Source: Euzebyales bacterium (lineage in GTDB: Bacteria; Actinomycetota; Nitriliruptoria; Euzebyales; JAHELV01). Taken from it: DNA of 64,000 bases. Position numbers and translations under genes: made by a program. The stretch is taken from NCBI GenBank assembly GCA_036374135.1, contig DASUUK010000113.1, positions 1-64,000 on the forward strand, read 5' to 3'. Under the pieces are notes generated by a model, which saw only the letters and a program-made list of their open reading frames with translations, did no database searches and had not been told where the DNA came from. Shown in pieces: positions 20,487 through 32,041 of this stretch. The stretch's first letter is position 1; each line of letters begins with the position of its first letter.

Positions 20487-20624
20487 ATGCAGCAGTGGGA
20501 GTACGCCACGGCACCGCTCATCAGCCACGCGCTCCAGGAGATCCTCAACAACTGGGGTGAGGAGGGCTACGAGCTCGTCACCGTCGTCGACAACGTCGCG
20601 TACTTCAAGCGGCCGAAGCAGTGA
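20487..20624 (+). CDS. DUF4177 small protein (Rv3678A-like)
   Basis: A 45 aa protein beginning MQQWEYATAPLISHALQEIL and ending VAYFKRPKQ, the typical DUF4177 pattern (WEY.T.PL ... L..WG..GYELV.V...FKRP). AGAAGGG lies nine bases before the ATG. Its stop overlaps the GTG of ridA (GTGA at 20621), so the two are translationally coupled, as is the gene pair in mycobacteria. Function unknown; it may be a stabilising partner of its neighbours. Confidence 0.85.
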   Translation: MQQWEYATAPLISHALQEILNNWGEEGYELVTVVDNVAYFKRPKQ

Positions 20625-21103
20625 GCGACCACGCCGCCGCCGCCGGTCCGAGCCGTCGGCTGGCCGAGCTGGGTGTCACGCTGCCCGACGCGCCCGCGCC
20701 GGCAGCGGCCTACGTCGGTCACGTGGTCGACGGTGGCCTGATCTACACCGCCGGTCAGCTGCCGCTGGACGGTGGCGCGCTGCTGGCCGAGGGACGCGTC
20801 GGCGACACGGTCGACCTCGCGACGGCGCAACGGTGCGCGCGGCAGTGCGCGGTGAACGTGCTCGCGCAGGTCGTCGCCGCCGGTCACCGCCTCGAGGATG
20901 TGCGGCGCATCGTGAAGCTGACCGTGTTCGTCGCCAGTGCGGCGGGGTTCACCGACCAGCATCTGGTCGCCAACGGCGCGTCGGAGTTCCTCGGCGACGT
21001 CTTCGGCGACGTCGGGCGTCACGCACGGTCCGCGGTCGGCGTCGCACTGCTTCCACTGGGCAGTCCCGTCGAGATCGAGGCGCTGATCGCGGTCGGCGGC
21101 TGA
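20621..21103 (+). CDS. RidA/YjgF family protein (Rv3678c-like)
   Basis: 160 aa Rid-family protein. It has AAYVGHVVDGGLIYTAGQLPLDGG near the N-terminus (as spaced motifs), a DVRRIVKLTVFVAS strand-helix unit and HARSAVGVALLPLGSPVEIEA at the C-terminus. The canonical catalytic Arg falls in GRHARSAVGVA. RidA proteins hydrolyse reactive 2-aminoacrylate-type enamines or related imines. This longer subgroup (about 155 aa) is the one next to the Get3-like pair in actinobacteria and may have a different imine substrate. It starts inside the DUF4177 stop. Confidence 0.88.
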   Translation: MSDHAAAAGPSRRLAELGVTLPDAPAPAAAYVGHVVDGGLIYTAGQLPLDGGALLAEGRVGDTVDLATAQRCARQCAVNVLAQVVAAGHRLEDVRRIVKLTVFVASAAGFTDQHLVANGASEFLGDVFGDVGRHARSAVGVALLPLGSPVEIEALIAVGG

Positions 21104-24105: not shown

Positions 24106-25632
24106 TCAGGCCGTGCGCGCGGTCCGTCGATCGGCGATCGCCGGCGGGGGACGTCGGTCGAACCACGGCCGGGCCTGCTCGAGCTGGGCCGCGAGGCGCA
24201 GCAGCATCGCCTCGTCGCCGTAGCGCCCGGCGAACTGGACACCGACGGGCAGCCCGTCGGGTGTCCAGTGCAGCGGCACCGACATGGCGGGTTGACCGGT
24301 CATGTTGAACACCGGCACGTTGGGGATCGGTGCCATCACCTTCGCAGCGAGACGGCGCAGCACAACCATGAGCGCGGGACGAACCGGCACGCGGCGCATC
24401 GCTTCCAGCAGGCTGCGTTCGGTCGCCGTGGGATCGAGCGCGTGATGCGGCATGGGGGGATCGGCGAGGGTGGACGTGAGCACGACGTCGATGCGCTCGC
24501 GGTCAAGCTGCTGCGCGATCGTGCGCCCCAGGACGCGGATGTGCGTGAACGCCGCGGCGACCTGCGCGCCCGTCAGCCTGCGCCCCACGAGCTGCAGGAC
24601 CCACGTCGCCAGCTCGTACTCGTCGGGGCATGGGGAGGACTGCCCTTTCAGCCGCGCGATGTCGGAGACGGCGGCCGCGACCGAGGCGGCGAACAGGACC
24701 ACCAGGGCCTCGCCGGCCGCTGCGCGATCGATGTCGAACTGCAGCGGCGTGACCTCGTGGCCGAGCTCGCCGACGAGGACGGTCGCGGCGCTGACGGCCC
24801 GACGGCACTCGGGCGCGATGTCATCGTGGAGGATGCCGCCGTCGACCACCCCAATCCGCAACGCGCCCGGCTCGGCGCCGACCTCCTCGCTGAACGGCCG
24901 CGCCCGACCCGGTGCGGCATAGGGGTCGCCGGGCTCGGGTCCGACGGCGACGTCGAGCAGCAGGGCCGAGTCACGCACCGATCGGGTCACCGCGTGGCTG
25001 ACGCTCAGCCCGAACAGCCCGTCGGCCGCGACCGGGCCGCTGGGGGTGCGTCCGCGCGACGGTTTGAGACCGAACAGTCCGCAGTTGCTCGCAGGGATGC
25101 GGATCGACCCGCCACCGTCGGACGCCGAGGCGGCGGGCACCATGCCGACCGCGACCGCGGCGGCGGCGCCGCCCGACGAACCGCCGGCCGTCCGCGTCGG
25201 GTCCCACGGGTTGACGCAGGCGCCGTGCAGCTCCGGCTCCGTGACGGGCATGATGCCGAGCTCGGGCACGTTGGTCATGCCCAGGCCGACGATCCCGGCG
25301 GCCTCCAGCCGGTCGACGAGGGTCGAGCTGTACGCCGGCACGTGCGCGCGCAACGCCCGCGACCCCATCGTCAGCCGTGCGCCGCTCCACGCGTGGCTCA
25401 GGCTCTTGAACAGGTATGGCACACCGGCCAGCGGGCCGTCCGGCACTCCGTCGGCGACCCTGCGCCGGGCGCGGTCGAACGCGGTCTCGACGACCGCGTT
25501 GAGCACCGGGTTGTGGCGCTCGATGCGATCGATGGCCGCCTCGAGCACCTCCGCCGTGGAGACCTGCCCGCTGCGGATCAGAGACGCGAGGCCGACGGCG
25601 TCGTGGTCCGTGTACTCCGCGAACGTCACCAT
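24106..25632 (-). CDS. Amidase (amidase signature family)
   Basis: 508 aa Ser-cisSer-Lys hydrolase. The catalytic Lys is in PYLFKSL, the Ser pair is in TAGGSSGGAAAAVA, and SDGGGSIRIPASNCGLFGLKPSRG completes the signature in two blocks. The ATG at 25632 (MVTFAEYTDHDAVGLASLI) fits the family N-terminus better than the open-frame start at 25662. It follows selB by 26 bp on the same strand and may be the last gene of the selA-clc-selB transcript, though no functional link is evident. Closest in style to generic amidases acting on aryl or acyl amides; it lacks a gatC/gatB context, so it is not GatA. Confidence 0.9.
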   Translation of the reverse strand: MVTFAEYTDHDAVGLASLIRSGQVSTAEVLEAAIDRIERHNPVLNAVVETAFDRARRRVADGVPDGPLAGVPYLFKSLSHAWSGARLTMGSRALRAHVPAYSSTLVDRLEAAGIVGLGMTNVPELGIMPVTEPELHGACVNPWDPTRTAGGSSGGAAAAVAVGMVPAASASDGGGSIRIPASNCGLFGLKPSRGRTPSGPVAADGLFGLSVSHAVTRSVRDSALLLDVAVGPEPGDPYAAPGRARPFSEEVGAEPGALRIGVVDGGILHDDIAPECRRAVSAATVLVGELGHEVTPLQFDIDRAAAGEALVVLFAASVAAAVSDIARLKGQSSPCPDEYELATWVLQLVGRRLTGAQVAAAFTHIRVLGRTIAQQLDRERIDVVLTSTLADPPMPHHALDPTATERSLLEAMRRVPVRPALMVVLRRLAAKVMAPIPNVPVFNMTGQPAMSVPLHWTPDGLPVGVQFAGRYGDEAMLLRLAAQLEQARPWFDRRPPPAIADRRTARTA

Positions 25633-25658
25633 CGGTGCCACGCTACCGGTGCGGGGCC

Positions 25659-27515
25659 TCACGCAAAGGTCCGCGTGTCTCCCGACCGTCGGGTGATCCC
25701 GCGGCGGTCGAGCTCCTCGAGCAGCGGGAGGATGTACTTGCGGCTGGTCCCCAGGACCTGGCGTGCCTCGGACGCGGTCAACGGGCCGTCGGTGGCCGCA
25801 TCCCGCAGCAGCGACATCGCCTGCTCCAGGGCGGTCGACGTCATGGCGATGTCGCCGGCCAGGCGCACGAGTTGCCCCGCGGACTCCATCTCGGCCAGCA
25901 GCGGTCGGGACACGCCTGCCGACGCGGCGGCGTCCGCGAGCCCGGGCGGCGCGAAGGGGTTCGCGTCCAGCGCGGCGAGCAGCTCATCGCGCGCGCGGCG
26001 CTGGTCGTCGTCGAGCGCCACACGGTGATCGGGCAGCCGCAGGCCGGCGGCCTCGCGCACGATGAGCTGTTGACGCTCGCACCACGTCACGACCGCGTCC
26101 ACGACCGCTGCCGGGCAACCTCGTTCGAGCACGGCGTTGTCGACGACCGGCCGGGGCGCGGTCCGCGCCAGTGGCTGGTCGACGTGGTGGATCGCCAGCG
26201 CGTCGCGGATCACCTCGCTCCACAGCCGCAGGTGGGAGTCGTCCACGTAGTGGTCGCCCAACACGTGCACGCCGGCCGGCGGGTCGGCAGGAGCCACGCC
26301 GATCAATGCGTGTGCCTCGAGGACCGGTGCCGCTCCGCGCTCCGCGACGTGCAGGGCCAGGAGCCGGTCGCGGTCGCCGACGGCCGCCGCCCGGGCTGCC
26401 AGCTGCTCCGCCCGCGCGTGCCGGCGGGCGGCGCCGCGTGGTCGGCGCGGCGGTGCCGCGTCGAGGACCGGACCTCCGCCCACCGTCACGGCGCGGCCGA
26501 CCTCGCGGAGCACGAAGCGGTCGCCGGCCTCGACGGCGACCGCTCCCCGCAGCTCGATGTGCACCGGACCCTCGGCTGGGCCCACGATCTGTCGGCCGGC
26601 CAGCGGCCAGACCCTGGCGACGTGTTCCGCCGAACCGATGTGTACGTGCCACGCCCCGGTGTGGCGGACGCGGTGGCCGGGCAGCACGCGGACCCAGGCG
26701 TCGAAGGCGCGCGTCGACCGCCACTGATCGGGGCGCACGAGCGCTCGGCCGCGCGCGGCCTCCTCGCGATCGACCCCCGCGAGGTTGACGGCGACGCGGC
26801 TGCCGGGGGGCACGGCGTCGCGATCGATGTCAAGGCTCTGCAGCGAGCGCGCGCGGCCCCGCGCACCTCCCGGCAGCACGGCGAGCTCGTCGCCGGTCCG
26901 CAGGGTGCCTCCGCCGAGCGTGCCGGTCACGACCGTCCCTGCGCCGCGGATCGTGAACGCCCTGTCGATCCACAGCCGCGGCCGGCCGCGGTCGGCCGCG
27001 GCGCCCACGCGGTCGCACACGTCGCGCAGCGCGTCGCGCAACGCGTCGAGGTCGAGGCCCGTCTGCGCGCTGGTGCGCACGATCGTTGCGCCCTCCAGCG
27101 ATGTGCCCTCCAGCGCCTCGAGCACCTCCAGCTCGGCGAGCTCGGCGAGCTCGTCGTCGACCGTGTCGATCTTGGTCAACGCCACGACGCCGTGGCGGAC
27201 GCCGAGCAGATCCAGGATCTGCAGGTGCTCGCGGCTCTGCGGCATCCAGCCCTCGTTGGCGGCCACGACCAGCAACGCGATCTCGATCGGTCCGGCGCCG
27301 GCGAGCATGTTGCCGATGAAGCGCTCGTGGCCGGGCAGATCGACAAAGGCGACGGTGTGCTCGTCGTCGAGGTCGAACCACGCGAAGCCGAGGTCGATCG
27401 TCAGGCCGCGCTGCTGCTCCTCGACGAACCGGTCGGGTTGCATGGTGGTCAGCGCCTCGACGAGCGTCGACTTGCCATGGTCGACGTGCCCGGCGGTGCA
27501 GATCACGTGCATCAT
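25659..27515 (-). CDS. selB: Selenocysteine-specific elongation factor SelB
   Basis: GTPase that delivers Sec-tRNA to in-frame UGA codons by binding a SECIS hairpin. The 618 aa protein starts MMHVICTAGHVDHGKSTLVE (G1 loop GHVDHGKST), with DLPGHERFIGNM (G3) and TKID (G4), followed by two EF-Tu-like beta-barrels, a SelB-specific domain, and C-terminal winged helices; the end ARQVLGTSRKYILPLLEELDRRGITRR is the typical SECIS-binding module. Two ATGs in tandem (27515, 27512) overlap the clc stop, with GAGGAG upstream. Together with selA two genes upstream it indicates a working selenocysteine pathway; selD and tRNA-Sec are not in the window. Confidence 0.95.
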   Translation of the reverse strand: MMHVICTAGHVDHGKSTLVEALTTMQPDRFVEEQQRGLTIDLGFAWFDLDDEHTVAFVDLPGHERFIGNMLAGAGPIEIALLVVAANEGWMPQSREHLQILDLLGVRHGVVALTKIDTVDDELAELAELEVLEALEGTSLEGATIVRTSAQTGLDLDALRDALRDVCDRVGAAADRGRPRLWIDRAFTIRGAGTVVTGTLGGGTLRTGDELAVLPGGARGRARSLQSLDIDRDAVPPGSRVAVNLAGVDREEAARGRALVRPDQWRSTRAFDAWVRVLPGHRVRHTGAWHVHIGSAEHVARVWPLAGRQIVGPAEGPVHIELRGAVAVEAGDRFVLREVGRAVTVGGGPVLDAAPPRRPRGAARRHARAEQLAARAAAVGDRDRLLALHVAERGAAPVLEAHALIGVAPADPPAGVHVLGDHYVDDSHLRLWSEVIRDALAIHHVDQPLARTAPRPVVDNAVLERGCPAAVVDAVVTWCERQQLIVREAAGLRLPDHRVALDDDQRRARDELLAALDANPFAPPGLADAAASAGVSRPLLAEMESAGQLVRLAGDIAMTSTALEQAMSLLRDAATDGPLTASEARQVLGTSRKYILPLLEELDRRGITRRSGDTRTFA

Positions 27516-29662
27516 GACTCCTCGGTGGGCCGGGGATCCGGTGACCCCGTCAGCAGCTCGCGCACCTCGGCGACGTGTTCGTCGTCGGCGACCGCGCTGA
27601 CCATGTCACCGGCCTCCAGGACGGTGTCGCCGCTCGGCATGATGAGGTCTCCGTGCCGATGCACGCTGGTCAGCAGCGTGTGGCGCGGCCACGCGACGTG
27701 CCGGACCTCCTTGCCGGCCGCCGGAGCCTCTGCGGTCACCTTCACCTCCAGGTAGTCCGTGCCCGACAGGTCCCGCAGGCGCCGGAGCTCGCTGCGCTGC
27801 TGGGACACCAGAGACTGCGTCACCGCATGCCGGTAGGCGGTGACCAGATCGGAACGCCGGATGAGGCCGATCAGGCGCTGGTGATCGTGCGAGTCGACGA
27901 CGGGCAGGCGGCCGATGTCCAGCGTCGCCATGCGACGGAGCGCGAGGTACACGGGGTCCTCGGGGGTCACTGTCAACAGATCGCGGGTGCAGATGTCGCC
28001 GATGGTGGGTTGTCCCTTCTCGCCGTCCCAGTCCTGGCCGCGTTCGACGTCCGCCAACGTGCACACACCGATCAGCCGGTCGCCGTCGAGCACCGGGAAG
28101 CCGTGATGGCCGCTGCGGTGGAACTCCTCACGGGCCTCCGGCAGCGTCATGTCGGTCGTCAGGACATCGGGTTCGACGGTCATCACCTCCCGGACGCTGA
28201 CGGTCTGCATCAGGTCGACGTCCTCGGGTTCGCCGTAGACGATCCCCCGTTTGGCCAGCGGCCAGCTGTAGATCGATGCCGGCTGGATCCGATCGGCGAT
28301 GAACGTGGCCAGGCCGGCGGCCAGCATCAGCGGCAGCACGAGCTCGTAGTCGCTGGTGAGCTCGAAGGCGATGACGATCGCGGTCATGGGAGCGCGGGCG
28401 GCGGCCGCGAAGACGGCCGCCATGCCGACGAGGGCGAACGCTCCGGGCTGCACGCCGGCGTCGGGCAGCAACGTCACCGCGACGTGTCCCACCGCGCCGC
28501 CGACCGCGGCGCCGCAGAAGATCGCGGGAGCGAATGTGCCGACCGCGTTGCCGCTGCCGATCGACAGGCACGTCGCGACGAGCTTAGCGAACGCAAGCAG
28601 GATGAGTAGGATCGCGACCGTCGGACCGGCACCGAACTCGGCGTCGAGCATGCGCTGGATCGGGTCGCGGACGCCGTCGATCGGCGGCAGTTTGTCCCCC
28701 GTGCCGAGCACCTCGGGCACCGCCAGTGCGACGAGTCCCACGCCCAGCCCTCCGAGCGCCAGCTTGAACGGACGCCACACCTCAAGCGCGGAGAACACCC
28801 GCTCGGCCAGATCCTCGCCGTACAGGAACGCGATGCCGAACAGCGCTGCGACGACGCCGAGCACGGCGTACAGCCCGAGCTCGCGGGCGTCGGTGAACGA
28901 GTACAGCGTGGCGGGCTCGTAGATGATCCCGGGGCCGATGATCTCGTGCGCCGTCACCGAACCGACGACCGACGCCACGACGACGGACTGCAGGACGGAT
29001 GTGCGGAACCGCCCGATGATCAATTCGATCGCGAACAGCATCCCGCCGATGGGGGCGTTGAACGAGGCACCGATGCCGGCCGCGGCGCCGGCGGCGACCA
29101 GCGTCCGCATGCGTTCCTCGCCGACCGCGAACAGGCGCCCGAGCAACGAGCCCACGCTGCCGCCGATCAGTACGATCGGACCCTCGCGTCCACCCGAAGC
29201 GCCGGTGCCGAGGGCGAGGCCCGAGGCGGCGATGCCCGTGAACGGCACGCGTCCGCGGAACCGCCCACCGTTGGTGGCGATCGTCATCATCACCCGGATG
29301 ACGCCGCTGCCGCTGCTCTCCGGCGCGACGTAGGTGATCAGCAGACCCACGAGGAACGCGCCGACCGTCGGCACGACCACGACGAGCAGCTGCGACGGGC
29401 CGGTGCCGAACGCGATCCGCTGCACCACGGCGATCGTGCCGATCAGGGCCGACGCGAGCAGACCCGTCCCGAGGCCGACGGCGACCGCGAGCGCGATCAT
29501 GAGGGTCTCACCCTGCAGGTGCGGGGCCGTCTCCCTGCGCAGGCGCCGTGCCCAGGCACCCACGGTCTCTCTGGACTGCCGACGCAGACCCAGCGCGACC
29601 GTCCCACCCACCGTGCGGCGCGACTGCTCGCTCGACCGCTCGTGCGGGACGGGTGAAGTCAT
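27512..29662 (-). CDS. ClC-type chloride channel/transporter with CBS pair and TrkA-C domain
   Basis: 716 aa from the ATG at 29662, which overlaps the selA stop (ATGA). The membrane part (about residues 50-430) keeps ClC selectivity motifs: SSGSGVIRV, GREGPIVLIG with the gating glutamate, and GNAVGTFAPAIF. Two CBS domains (about 465-590) and a TrkA-C/RCK-C regulatory domain (about 625-705) follow, so anion flux is likely controlled by a nucleotide. Anion (chloride, fluoride or nitrate-type) exchange is the family role. The odd feature is its place: it lies exactly between selA and selB with 4-bp overlaps on both sides. Confidence 0.92.
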   Translation of the reverse strand: MTSPVPHERSSEQSRRTVGGTVALGLRRQSRETVGAWARRLRRETAPHLQGETLMIALAVAVGLGTGLLASALIGTIAVVQRIAFGTGPSQLLVVVVPTVGAFLVGLLITYVAPESSGSGVIRVMMTIATNGGRFRGRVPFTGIAASGLALGTGASGGREGPIVLIGGSVGSLLGRLFAVGEERMRTLVAAGAAAGIGASFNAPIGGMLFAIELIIGRFRTSVLQSVVVASVVGSVTAHEIIGPGIIYEPATLYSFTDARELGLYAVLGVVAALFGIAFLYGEDLAERVFSALEVWRPFKLALGGLGVGLVALAVPEVLGTGDKLPPIDGVRDPIQRMLDAEFGAGPTVAILLILLAFAKLVATCLSIGSGNAVGTFAPAIFCGAAVGGAVGHVAVTLLPDAGVQPGAFALVGMAAVFAAAARAPMTAIVIAFELTSDYELVLPLMLAAGLATFIADRIQPASIYSWPLAKRGIVYGEPEDVDLMQTVSVREVMTVEPDVLTTDMTLPEAREEFHRSGHHGFPVLDGDRLIGVCTLADVERGQDWDGEKGQPTIGDICTRDLLTVTPEDPVYLALRRMATLDIGRLPVVDSHDHQRLIGLIRRSDLVTAYRHAVTQSLVSQQRSELRRLRDLSGTDYLEVKVTAEAPAAGKEVRHVAWPRHTLLTSVHRHGDLIMPSGDTVLEAGDMVSAVADDEHVAEVRELLTGSPDPRPTEES

Positions 29663-31101
29663 CGGGACGGCCTGGCCACCGCCACGACCCGCCGCGATAC
29701 CAGGGCGTCGTCGGCGGAGTCGACAGTGCGCAGGTCGATCACCACCGCATCCTCGGCGACGCGCACCACGACCGCCGGTCGCCCCATCCTCAGGTCGCGG
29801 GCCAGCGCGTCCGGTCGGCCGACCTGTACCCGCACGACCGGCCCGTCGATGGTGGCATCCGGCGCGACGCCACCCCCGGGCACGCCGGCGGCGCGCGTGA
29901 CGGTCGCCGTGACGCCCTCCGACGTCAGTGCGTCTGCGAGGTCGTCGCACCGTGCCGTGAGCGTGCCCTCGTCCGCCTCGAGCATCCGCCAGACCGGGAT
30001 CTCGTCACGACGCTCCGCGACGTGCAGCTCCAGGGTCGCCTGGAGCGCGGCGATCCTGAGCTTGTCAAGGCGCAGCGCCCGGGCCAGGGGGTGGCCTCTC
30101 ATCCGCCCGATGAGGTCGGCGCGCCCGCACAGCAGCCCGGCCTGTGGCCCTCCGAGCAGCTTGTCCGCACTGCACAGGACCACGTCGGCGCCGTCGCGCA
30201 GCGCGGTGGTGACAGACGGCTCGTCGGCCACCACCCCCGTCGCGTCTTCGAGCAGACCCGAGCCGGTGTCGTAGAGCAGGGGGACGCCCCGCTTGCCCGC
30301 GATGGCGGCGAGCTCGGGCAGGGACGGTCGCGCCACGAACCCGACGATCCGGTAGTTGGACGGATGCAGGGTCAGGATCGCGCCGACGTCACCGCCGGCC
30401 AGGTAGTCGTCCGCGCGTGTGCGGTTGGTGGTGCCCACCTCGATCAGTCTCGCGCCCGACGCGCCCATGATGTCAGGCAGGCGGAACGACCCGCCGATCT
30501 CGATCAGCTCACCGCGGGACACCACCACTCCGCGACCGCCCGCGAGGGTCGCCAGGGCGAGGACCAGCGCGGCCGCCGCGTTGTTGACCACGAACGCGGC
30601 CTCGGCGCCGGTGGCCTCACGCAGCAGCGGTTCCAGGCGGGTGGTGCGCGAACCACGTCGACCGGTCTCGAGGTCGTACTCGAGGTCGCAGTAGCCCGTG
30701 GCGCCGGCCATCGCGTCCAGGGCGGCCTCGGCGAGCGGGACCCGGCCGAGGTTGGTGTGGACCACGACGCCGGTGGCGTTGAGCACCCGCTGCAACGGCT
30801 TCGGACGGCGGGCGGCCAGGCCGTCGAGCGCGGCGGCCACCAGCACGTCGATCGTGGGAACCGGGTCGCCGGCGATGACGCGGCCGCGCGCGTGGTCGAC
30901 GGCGTCGCGCAGCGCGGCGGTGACCGCTCGCCGCCCACGTGCCGCGATCGCGTCGCCACAGCGCGCGAGCAGTTGATCGATGCCCGGCAGTCCCCGCAGC
31001 CGCGTGTTCAGATCGCCGGCGGACGTCGCGGCGCGCGGCGTCCGGTCGGCGTGCTCGGAGGTCTCGGCGTGCGATGTGGTGCTGTCGCTGTCTGAGGGCA
31101 T
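29659..31101 (-). CDS. selA: L-seryl-tRNA(Sec) selenium transferase
   Basis: PLP enzyme that converts Ser-tRNA(Sec) to Sec-tRNA(Sec) with selenophosphate. The 480 aa protein has an N-terminal tRNA-binding domain, NATGVVVHTNLGRVPL, a glycine-rich PLP phosphate region and the PLP-lysine in CSADKLLGGPQAG. It starts at ATG 31101 after GAGGCGGGAC. It heads a tightly overlapping operon selA-clc-selB. The 115 bp upstream, up to the divergent MBL gene, were checked for tRNA-Sec and hold none that I can fold. Confidence 0.95.
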   Translation of the reverse strand: MPSDSDSTTSHAETSEHADRTPRAATSAGDLNTRLRGLPGIDQLLARCGDAIAARGRRAVTAALRDAVDHARGRVIAGDPVPTIDVLVAAALDGLAARRPKPLQRVLNATGVVVHTNLGRVPLAEAALDAMAGATGYCDLEYDLETGRRGSRTTRLEPLLREATGAEAAFVVNNAAAALVLALATLAGGRGVVVSRGELIEIGGSFRLPDIMGASGARLIEVGTTNRTRADDYLAGGDVGAILTLHPSNYRIVGFVARPSLPELAAIAGKRGVPLLYDTGSGLLEDATGVVADEPSVTTALRDGADVVLCSADKLLGGPQAGLLCGRADLIGRMRGHPLARALRLDKLRIAALQATLELHVAERRDEIPVWRMLEADEGTLTARCDDLADALTSEGVTATVTRAAGVPGGGVAPDATIDGPVVRVQVGRPDALARDLRMGRPAVVVRVAEDAVVIDLRTVDSADDALVSRRVVAVARPSR

Positions 31102-31216: not shown

Positions 31217-32041
31217 ATGACAGATGTCGGTGGCCACAGCGGGGTCACGTCACTCGATGAGGTGACCACGAGGGTGCGGGCTGACAACCCGTCGCCGATG
31301 ACCTTGACGGGCACCAACACGTACGTGATCTCGGTGCCCGGCGCCGACACCGCGGTGGTCGTCGACCCGGGCCCGGCGCTTCCCGCGCACAGGGAGGCGA
31401 TCGAGGGTGTGGTCGCTGACCGCGCGGTGCGGGTCGCGGCCGTCGTCATCACGCACCACCACGCCGACCACGCCGAAGCGGTCGGCTGGGCGACGACCTG
31501 GCGGGCGCCGGCCCTCGCGTTCGATCCCGATCGGATCCCCGGCACCGAGCCGCTGACGGACGGACAGGTCGTCGACGCCGCCGGAGTGGAGGTCGTGGTC
31601 CACCACCAGCCGGGGCACACCAGCGACCACGTGTGCCTGCGGGTCTCCCGCACCGGCGTCGTCCTGACCGGAGACCACGTGCTGGGCGAGGGGACGACCG
31701 TGATCGCCTGGCCCGACGGTGACCTCAGTGCGTACCTGACGTCGCTCCGGGCGTTGCGGGAGCTGGAACCCACCGCGCTGTACCCGGGACACGGAGACGT
31801 CATCGGCGACCCCGCCGGCCACATCGACGCGCTCCTCGCACACCGGGCGCAACGCACCGAACAGATCGTCGACGCGCTCGCAGCCGGTGGTGGGACCGTG
31901 CAGGAGATCGTCGCGCACGTCTATCCGGACCTCCGCGCCGACCTGCGGCCGGCGGCCGGGCGCAGCGTCCGGGCCCACCTCGCCGATCTCGAACGGCAGG
32001 GCCGTGTGGTCCCCCGCGGGGAGCGCTGGCATGGCGGCTAG
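31217..32041 (+). CDS. MBL-fold hydrolase (LACTB2/Rv3677-like)
   Basis: 274 aa metallo-beta-lactamase fold protein. Metal motifs: THHHADHAEAV (HxHxDH), VHHQPGHTSDH, TGDHVLG and YPGHGDVI. A C-terminal winged-helix-like tail (about residues 215-274, VQEIVAHVYPDLRADL...VRAHLADLERQGRVV) is typical of the LACTB2/Rv3677 group, which includes endoribonucleases and hydrolases. In mycobacteria the relative lies near the Rv3678-Rv3683 cluster; here it is 10 kb away. The ATG 31217 gives the family N-terminus; the frame is open further up. It overlaps the next gene by 11 bp. Confidence 0.87.
   Translation: MTDVGGHSGVTSLDEVTTRVRADNPSPMTLTGTNTYVISVPGADTAVVVDPGPALPAHREAIEGVVADRAVRVAAVVITHHHADHAEAVGWATTWRAPALAFDPDRIPGTEPLTDGQVVDAAGVEVVVHHQPGHTSDHVCLRVSRTGVVLTGDHVLGEGTTVIAWPDGDLSAYLTSLRALRELEPTALYPGHGDVIGDPAGHIDALLAHRAQRTEQIVDALAAGGGTVQEIVAHVYPDLRADLRPAAGRSVRAHLADLERQGRVVPRGERWHGG

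Follow-up and report, generated by a model that had tools for sequence, protein, structure and literature searches.

The ClC-family gene (clc) between selA and selB in a 64,000-nucleotide stretch of DNA from a Euzebyales bacterium (GCA_036374135.1, contig DASUUK010000113.1, positions 1 to 64,000; hereafter the window) is in all probability a housekeeping passenger of the selAB operon that itself plays no part in selenium use, because relatives lacking the selenocysteine (Sec) genes keep clc at the same spot. An earlier note on this DNA had raised the possibility of an ionic response tied to selenium use, with coincidence through operon fusion as the fallback; the distribution across genomes does not support the former, and the evidence favors the latter.

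The selA-clc-selB locus

The following features of the locus were used in our analysis.

29659..31101, minus strand: selA, L-seryl-tRNA(Sec) selenium transferase, 480 aa (TIGR00474, 449 bits; PF03841, 369 bits)
29659..29662, minus strand: selA/clc overlap, ATGA (from the sequence)
27512..29662, minus strand: clc, ClC-family anion channel/transporter, 716 aa (PF00654, 280 bits; PF00571, two copies; PF02080)
27512..27515, minus strand: clc/selB overlap, ATGA (from the sequence; alternative second ATG at 27512)
25659..27515, minus strand: selB, selenocysteine-specific elongation factor, 618 aa (TIGR00475, 315 bits; SelB-wing_3)
24106..25662, minus strand: amidase gene downstream of selB (PF01425, 293 bits)
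31298..32041, plus strand: flanking gene, putative metallo-beta-lactamase-like hydrolase (sequence-based name; synteny)
20621..21103, plus strand: flanking gene, putative RidA-like protein (sequence-based name; synteny)

The TIGR00474 (selA) and TIGR00475 (selB) matches are well above the curated NCBIfam cut-offs, and clc is the single Voltage_CLC gene of the source genome (G000). As had been proposed, 4 bp are shared at both junctions, where ATGA is read: the selA stop TGA (29661-29659) overlaps the clc ATG (29662-29660), and the clc stop TGA (27514-27512) overlaps the selB ATG (27515-27513). A second in-frame selB ATG at 27512 would reduce the clc/selB overlap to 1 bp, which is the state in three relatives of the genus. 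Taking GTG at 25662 as the amidase start would give a 4-bp overlap with selB as well, so that a selA-clc-selB-amidase operon is possible; the amidase gene also follows selB in relative G029.

Compared with the standard bacterial operon, in which selA lies directly upstream of selB on the same strand, as it does elsewhere in the class and phylum, the window has one unrelated gene in between, an order of genes confined to its taxonomic order. That selA and selB are normally adjacent, as the earlier note had assumed, holds for all 13 loci in the class's other families, none of which has clc between or beside the two genes, and for nearly all Actinomycetota loci having both.

The overlaps had also been taken to mean that the channel must be co-translated with the selenocysteine machinery. 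Over 104 kb of the contig, a 4-bp overlap is possible in 13 of the 58 co-directional neighbor pairs, so that by itself it is an ordinary, local habit. Translational coupling of clc with selA and selB is likely in the source genus, where the overlaps imply that co-expression is in some way beneficial or at least tolerated; obligatory co-translation, however, is too strong a claim and coupling is not general, because genes on the opposite strand interrupt the set in four relatives. Four such genes separate clc from selB in G001, two separate selA from clc in G017, and one does so in each of G022 and G023.

Features of the ClC protein

The Voltage_CLC domain is complete (PF00654 positions 1-345 of 346, 280 bits), with the same full-length fold as ClcA/ClcB-like bacterial anion channels and Cl-/H+ exchangers. 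Aligned with Escherichia coli CLC-ec1 (PDB 1KPK/1OTS), residues S107, E148, E202, and Y445 correspond to S119, E160, E213, and Y465 of the window protein, which include the anion-site serine (S119), the gating glutamate in the GREGP motif (E160, invariant in 64 of 64 aligned rows), and the central tyrosine (Y465). Unlike CLC-ec1, the window protein lacks the internal proton glutamate (E203), has GSGVI in place of GSGIP, and carries an additional CBS pair and a TrkA-C domain. The E203 position is occupied by Leu214, so the protein lacks this mark of a Cl-/H+ antiporter, and only V, L, I, or M was found in this column across the 64 rows compared. Non-protonatable residues at E203 of CLC-ec1 abolish H+ transport and keep Cl- transport (PMC3519907). 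Judging from these residues, the ClC is probably anion conducting and not H+ coupled.

The PF00571 (two copies) and PF02080 matches bear out the CBS and TrkA-C domains reported earlier, which would control the ClC. ClCs of Chloroflexota, Acidimicrobiia, and Thermodesulfobacteriota share about 36-42% identity with the window protein and have likewise lost the internal glutamate, and most of them align through its C-terminal TrkA-C region. The anion-site serine varies within the class (S, G, A, P), so anion selectivity may be variable there; outside the class, this position holds H, D, G, or S. A few alignment columns mark the sel-linked ClC rows, and these may simply follow phylogeny.

Distribution of selA-clc-selB

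A search for the selA-clc-selB order showed that it is more than a chance arrangement: 12 of the 30 genomes from the window's order, spread over three families, have it, either directly (G000, G002, G003, G007, G016, and G027-G029) or with inserted genes (G001, G017, G022, and G023). Among the 14 genomes of the order with both clc and selB, clc lies inside the selA-to-selB interval in 12. Seven genomes have selA and selB with no clc between them (G005, G009, G010, G013, G021, G024, and G025), two of which (G021 and G024) carry clc elsewhere; most of the compared genomes are drafts, so a single absence is weak evidence. In G008, selA and selB surround two clc fragments representing the 5' and 3' parts (L065:1088-1999), and this clc is a gene in decay.

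Outside the order, the linkage disappears. In G039 and G046, each assembled as a single contig, clc lies far from selB; the neighbor at 20621 is often also present at the selA/selB loci of the class's other families. No ClC was found in the DNA around 40 selB loci of Actinomycetota outside the class, and no selA or selB match was found around 65 loci of ClC relatives outside the class, some of them on short contigs. Among 80 ClC relatives in named genomes, the sel-adjacent ones (L086, L088, L089, and L091) all belong to Nitriliruptorales or Euzebyales. The selA-clc-selB arrangement is old and restricted to the window's order.

Across the 66 genomes of the class, 24 have both clc and selB, 12 only clc, 19 only selB, and 11 neither. 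The two genes are not found together more often than chance predicts (odds ratio, 1.16; p=0.80), also at a completeness of at least 90% (p=0.71), and their presence is independent across the class. A sel-linked ClC lineage set apart from the unlinked ones was considered and rejected, since the tree places the ClCs of the other family (f5), encoded at a distance from selB, among the sequences of the order.

Sec-free relatives retain clc at the same site

Two relatives, G018 (96% complete) and G019, lack selA, selB, and tRNA-Sec, and no selD was found in them above the cut-off. Both nevertheless encode a complete ClC protein with the ClC residues kept, and their clc coding sequences differ with a dN/dS of 0.18 (NG86), indicating purifying selection. 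In both, clc has neighbors that enclose selA-clc-selB in other genomes. The gene at 31298..32041, kept beside selA across the order, is near clc on one side in G018, while on the other side G018 and G019 both have the genes at 20621 and 18964, the first of which (20621..21103) is otherwise kept beside selB. In the ClC tree, the two proteins nest with the sel-linked G017 (support 99), then with G016 and G003. Because clc is intact, has the same flanks, and nests in a sel-linked clade, we conclude that G018 and G019 lost the Sec genes while clc stayed in place. The clc lineage is therefore not restricted to sel carriers. The earlier note had named a clc ortholog lying elsewhere in selenium-free relatives as evidence against its proposal; such an ortholog exists in both genomes, but at the same site and not elsewhere. 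As a member of a selenocysteine gene set, clc fails on both counts, being present without Sec genes and absent in many Sec users; loss has occurred independently in both directions.

Origin of the arrangement

The selA-selB interval has also taken up other genes: an M23 peptidase in G024 and G025, a GGDEF protein in G022, a TPP enzyme and a cyclase in G017, and a DUF3516 helicase and a Cu/Zn SOD in G001.

L062:7085-8188, L063:7223-8338, L060:9331-10269, L058:3612-7817, and L059:2148-4558: unrelated genes in selA-selB intervals of the order

The uptake of such different, unrelated genes fits the selA-selB junction being a tolerant insertion site. The state with clc between needs 4-5 changes on the SelA+SelB tree. 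Since selA and selB are directly adjacent in the rest of the class, the history is explained most simply if clc entered once, in the order's ancestor, and was lost several times afterwards, a parsimonious rather than a proven account; repeated insertion of clc into selA-selB is also conceivable. On the passenger reading, a housekeeping ClC, most likely for chloride, carrying a regulatory pair of CBS domains and a TrkA-C domain, would have entered an existing selA-selB pair in the ancestor of the order (class Nitriliruptoria, Nitriliruptorales/Euzebyales relatives). The junctions would then have tightened to stop/start overlaps in the window's genus, which makes co-transcription and translational coupling of clc with selA and selB probable there, whereas in other descendants clc would have been lost, moved, or kept after the whole selenocysteine system went.

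Relation of clc to selenium use

A ClC that is no selenium transporter might still be placed by selection for co-expression with selA and selB, for example under shared anoxic or saline conditions. The long retention of the linkage and the tight overlaps in the window's genus speak for such selection, which we nonetheless consider unlikely: the flanking genes at 20621 and 31298, for which no selenium role is apparent, are conserved to a similar degree as clc, opposite-strand genes interrupt the set in G001, G017, G022, and G023, and clc and selB occur independently of each other. A related possibility, to which we give slightly less credence still, is that the sel operon retains the ClC so that anion homeostasis and selenoprotein synthesis are co-regulated, for example in anoxic saline settings, and that clc is also of use by itself where Sec has been lost.

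The suggestion that the ClC transports a selenite-type oxyanion, as a selenite/selenate transporter feeding SelD/SelA and hence positioned in the sel operon, draws on its overlapping placement between selA and selB and on the linkage that 12 of the order's 30 genomes retain. We regard it as very improbable and reject such a role on the distribution: clc occurs without any Sec genes in G018 and G019, Sec occurs without clc in G005, G009, G010, G013, G025, and others, and clc and selB show no co-occurrence beyond chance (p=0.80). The ClC gating glutamate and the anion-site serine and tyrosine are retained as well; the residues match an anion ClC, and nothing points to selenite. Moreover, a comparative study of selenium gene neighborhoods proposed YedE as a selenium transporter, with chloride and channels unmentioned (PMC5322559). 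An assembly or binning error in a single draft genome, which the 115 contigs of the source genome might suggest, has practically no chance of being the explanation and is refuted by the same order in eleven further genomes, including the single-contig G003 and the two-contig G022.

The open-access literature yielded no paper combining selA, selB, "chloride channel," and selenocysteine, and nothing on selenocysteine in Nitriliruptoria; two further comparative selenium-gene studies (PMC2432076, PMC5029168) likewise make no mention of chloride or channels. It seems that selA-clc-selB is undescribed in this literature, as a lineage-specific order of known genes. With clc read as a passenger, the locus illustrates clearly that neither tightly overlapping operon genes nor a conserved gene order proves a common pathway: in some genomes the passenger outlived the whole selenocysteine system at the same site, and in others the system persisted after the passenger was gone. 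It also cautions against naming selenium transporters by neighborhood alone.

Selenocysteine use in the source genome

The source genome appears to use selenocysteine. A tRNA-Sec (anticodon tca) is located on the same contig (G000:C113:90014-90107), about 62 kb from selA/selB, and selD is present at G000:C74. The selD gene itself encodes a selenoprotein, with an in-frame TGA in the motif GAGUACK (L281:1041-2231, minus strand; about 8.0-9.2 kb on G000:C74); a single TGA within selD was found in most genomes of families f1 and f2 and in none of f3. Beside selD, a minus-strand open reading frame (L281:2460-3497) resembles, by eye, FdhD, a formate dehydrogenase accessory protein (putative), and most of the selenium use may be due to a selenocysteine-containing formate dehydrogenase.
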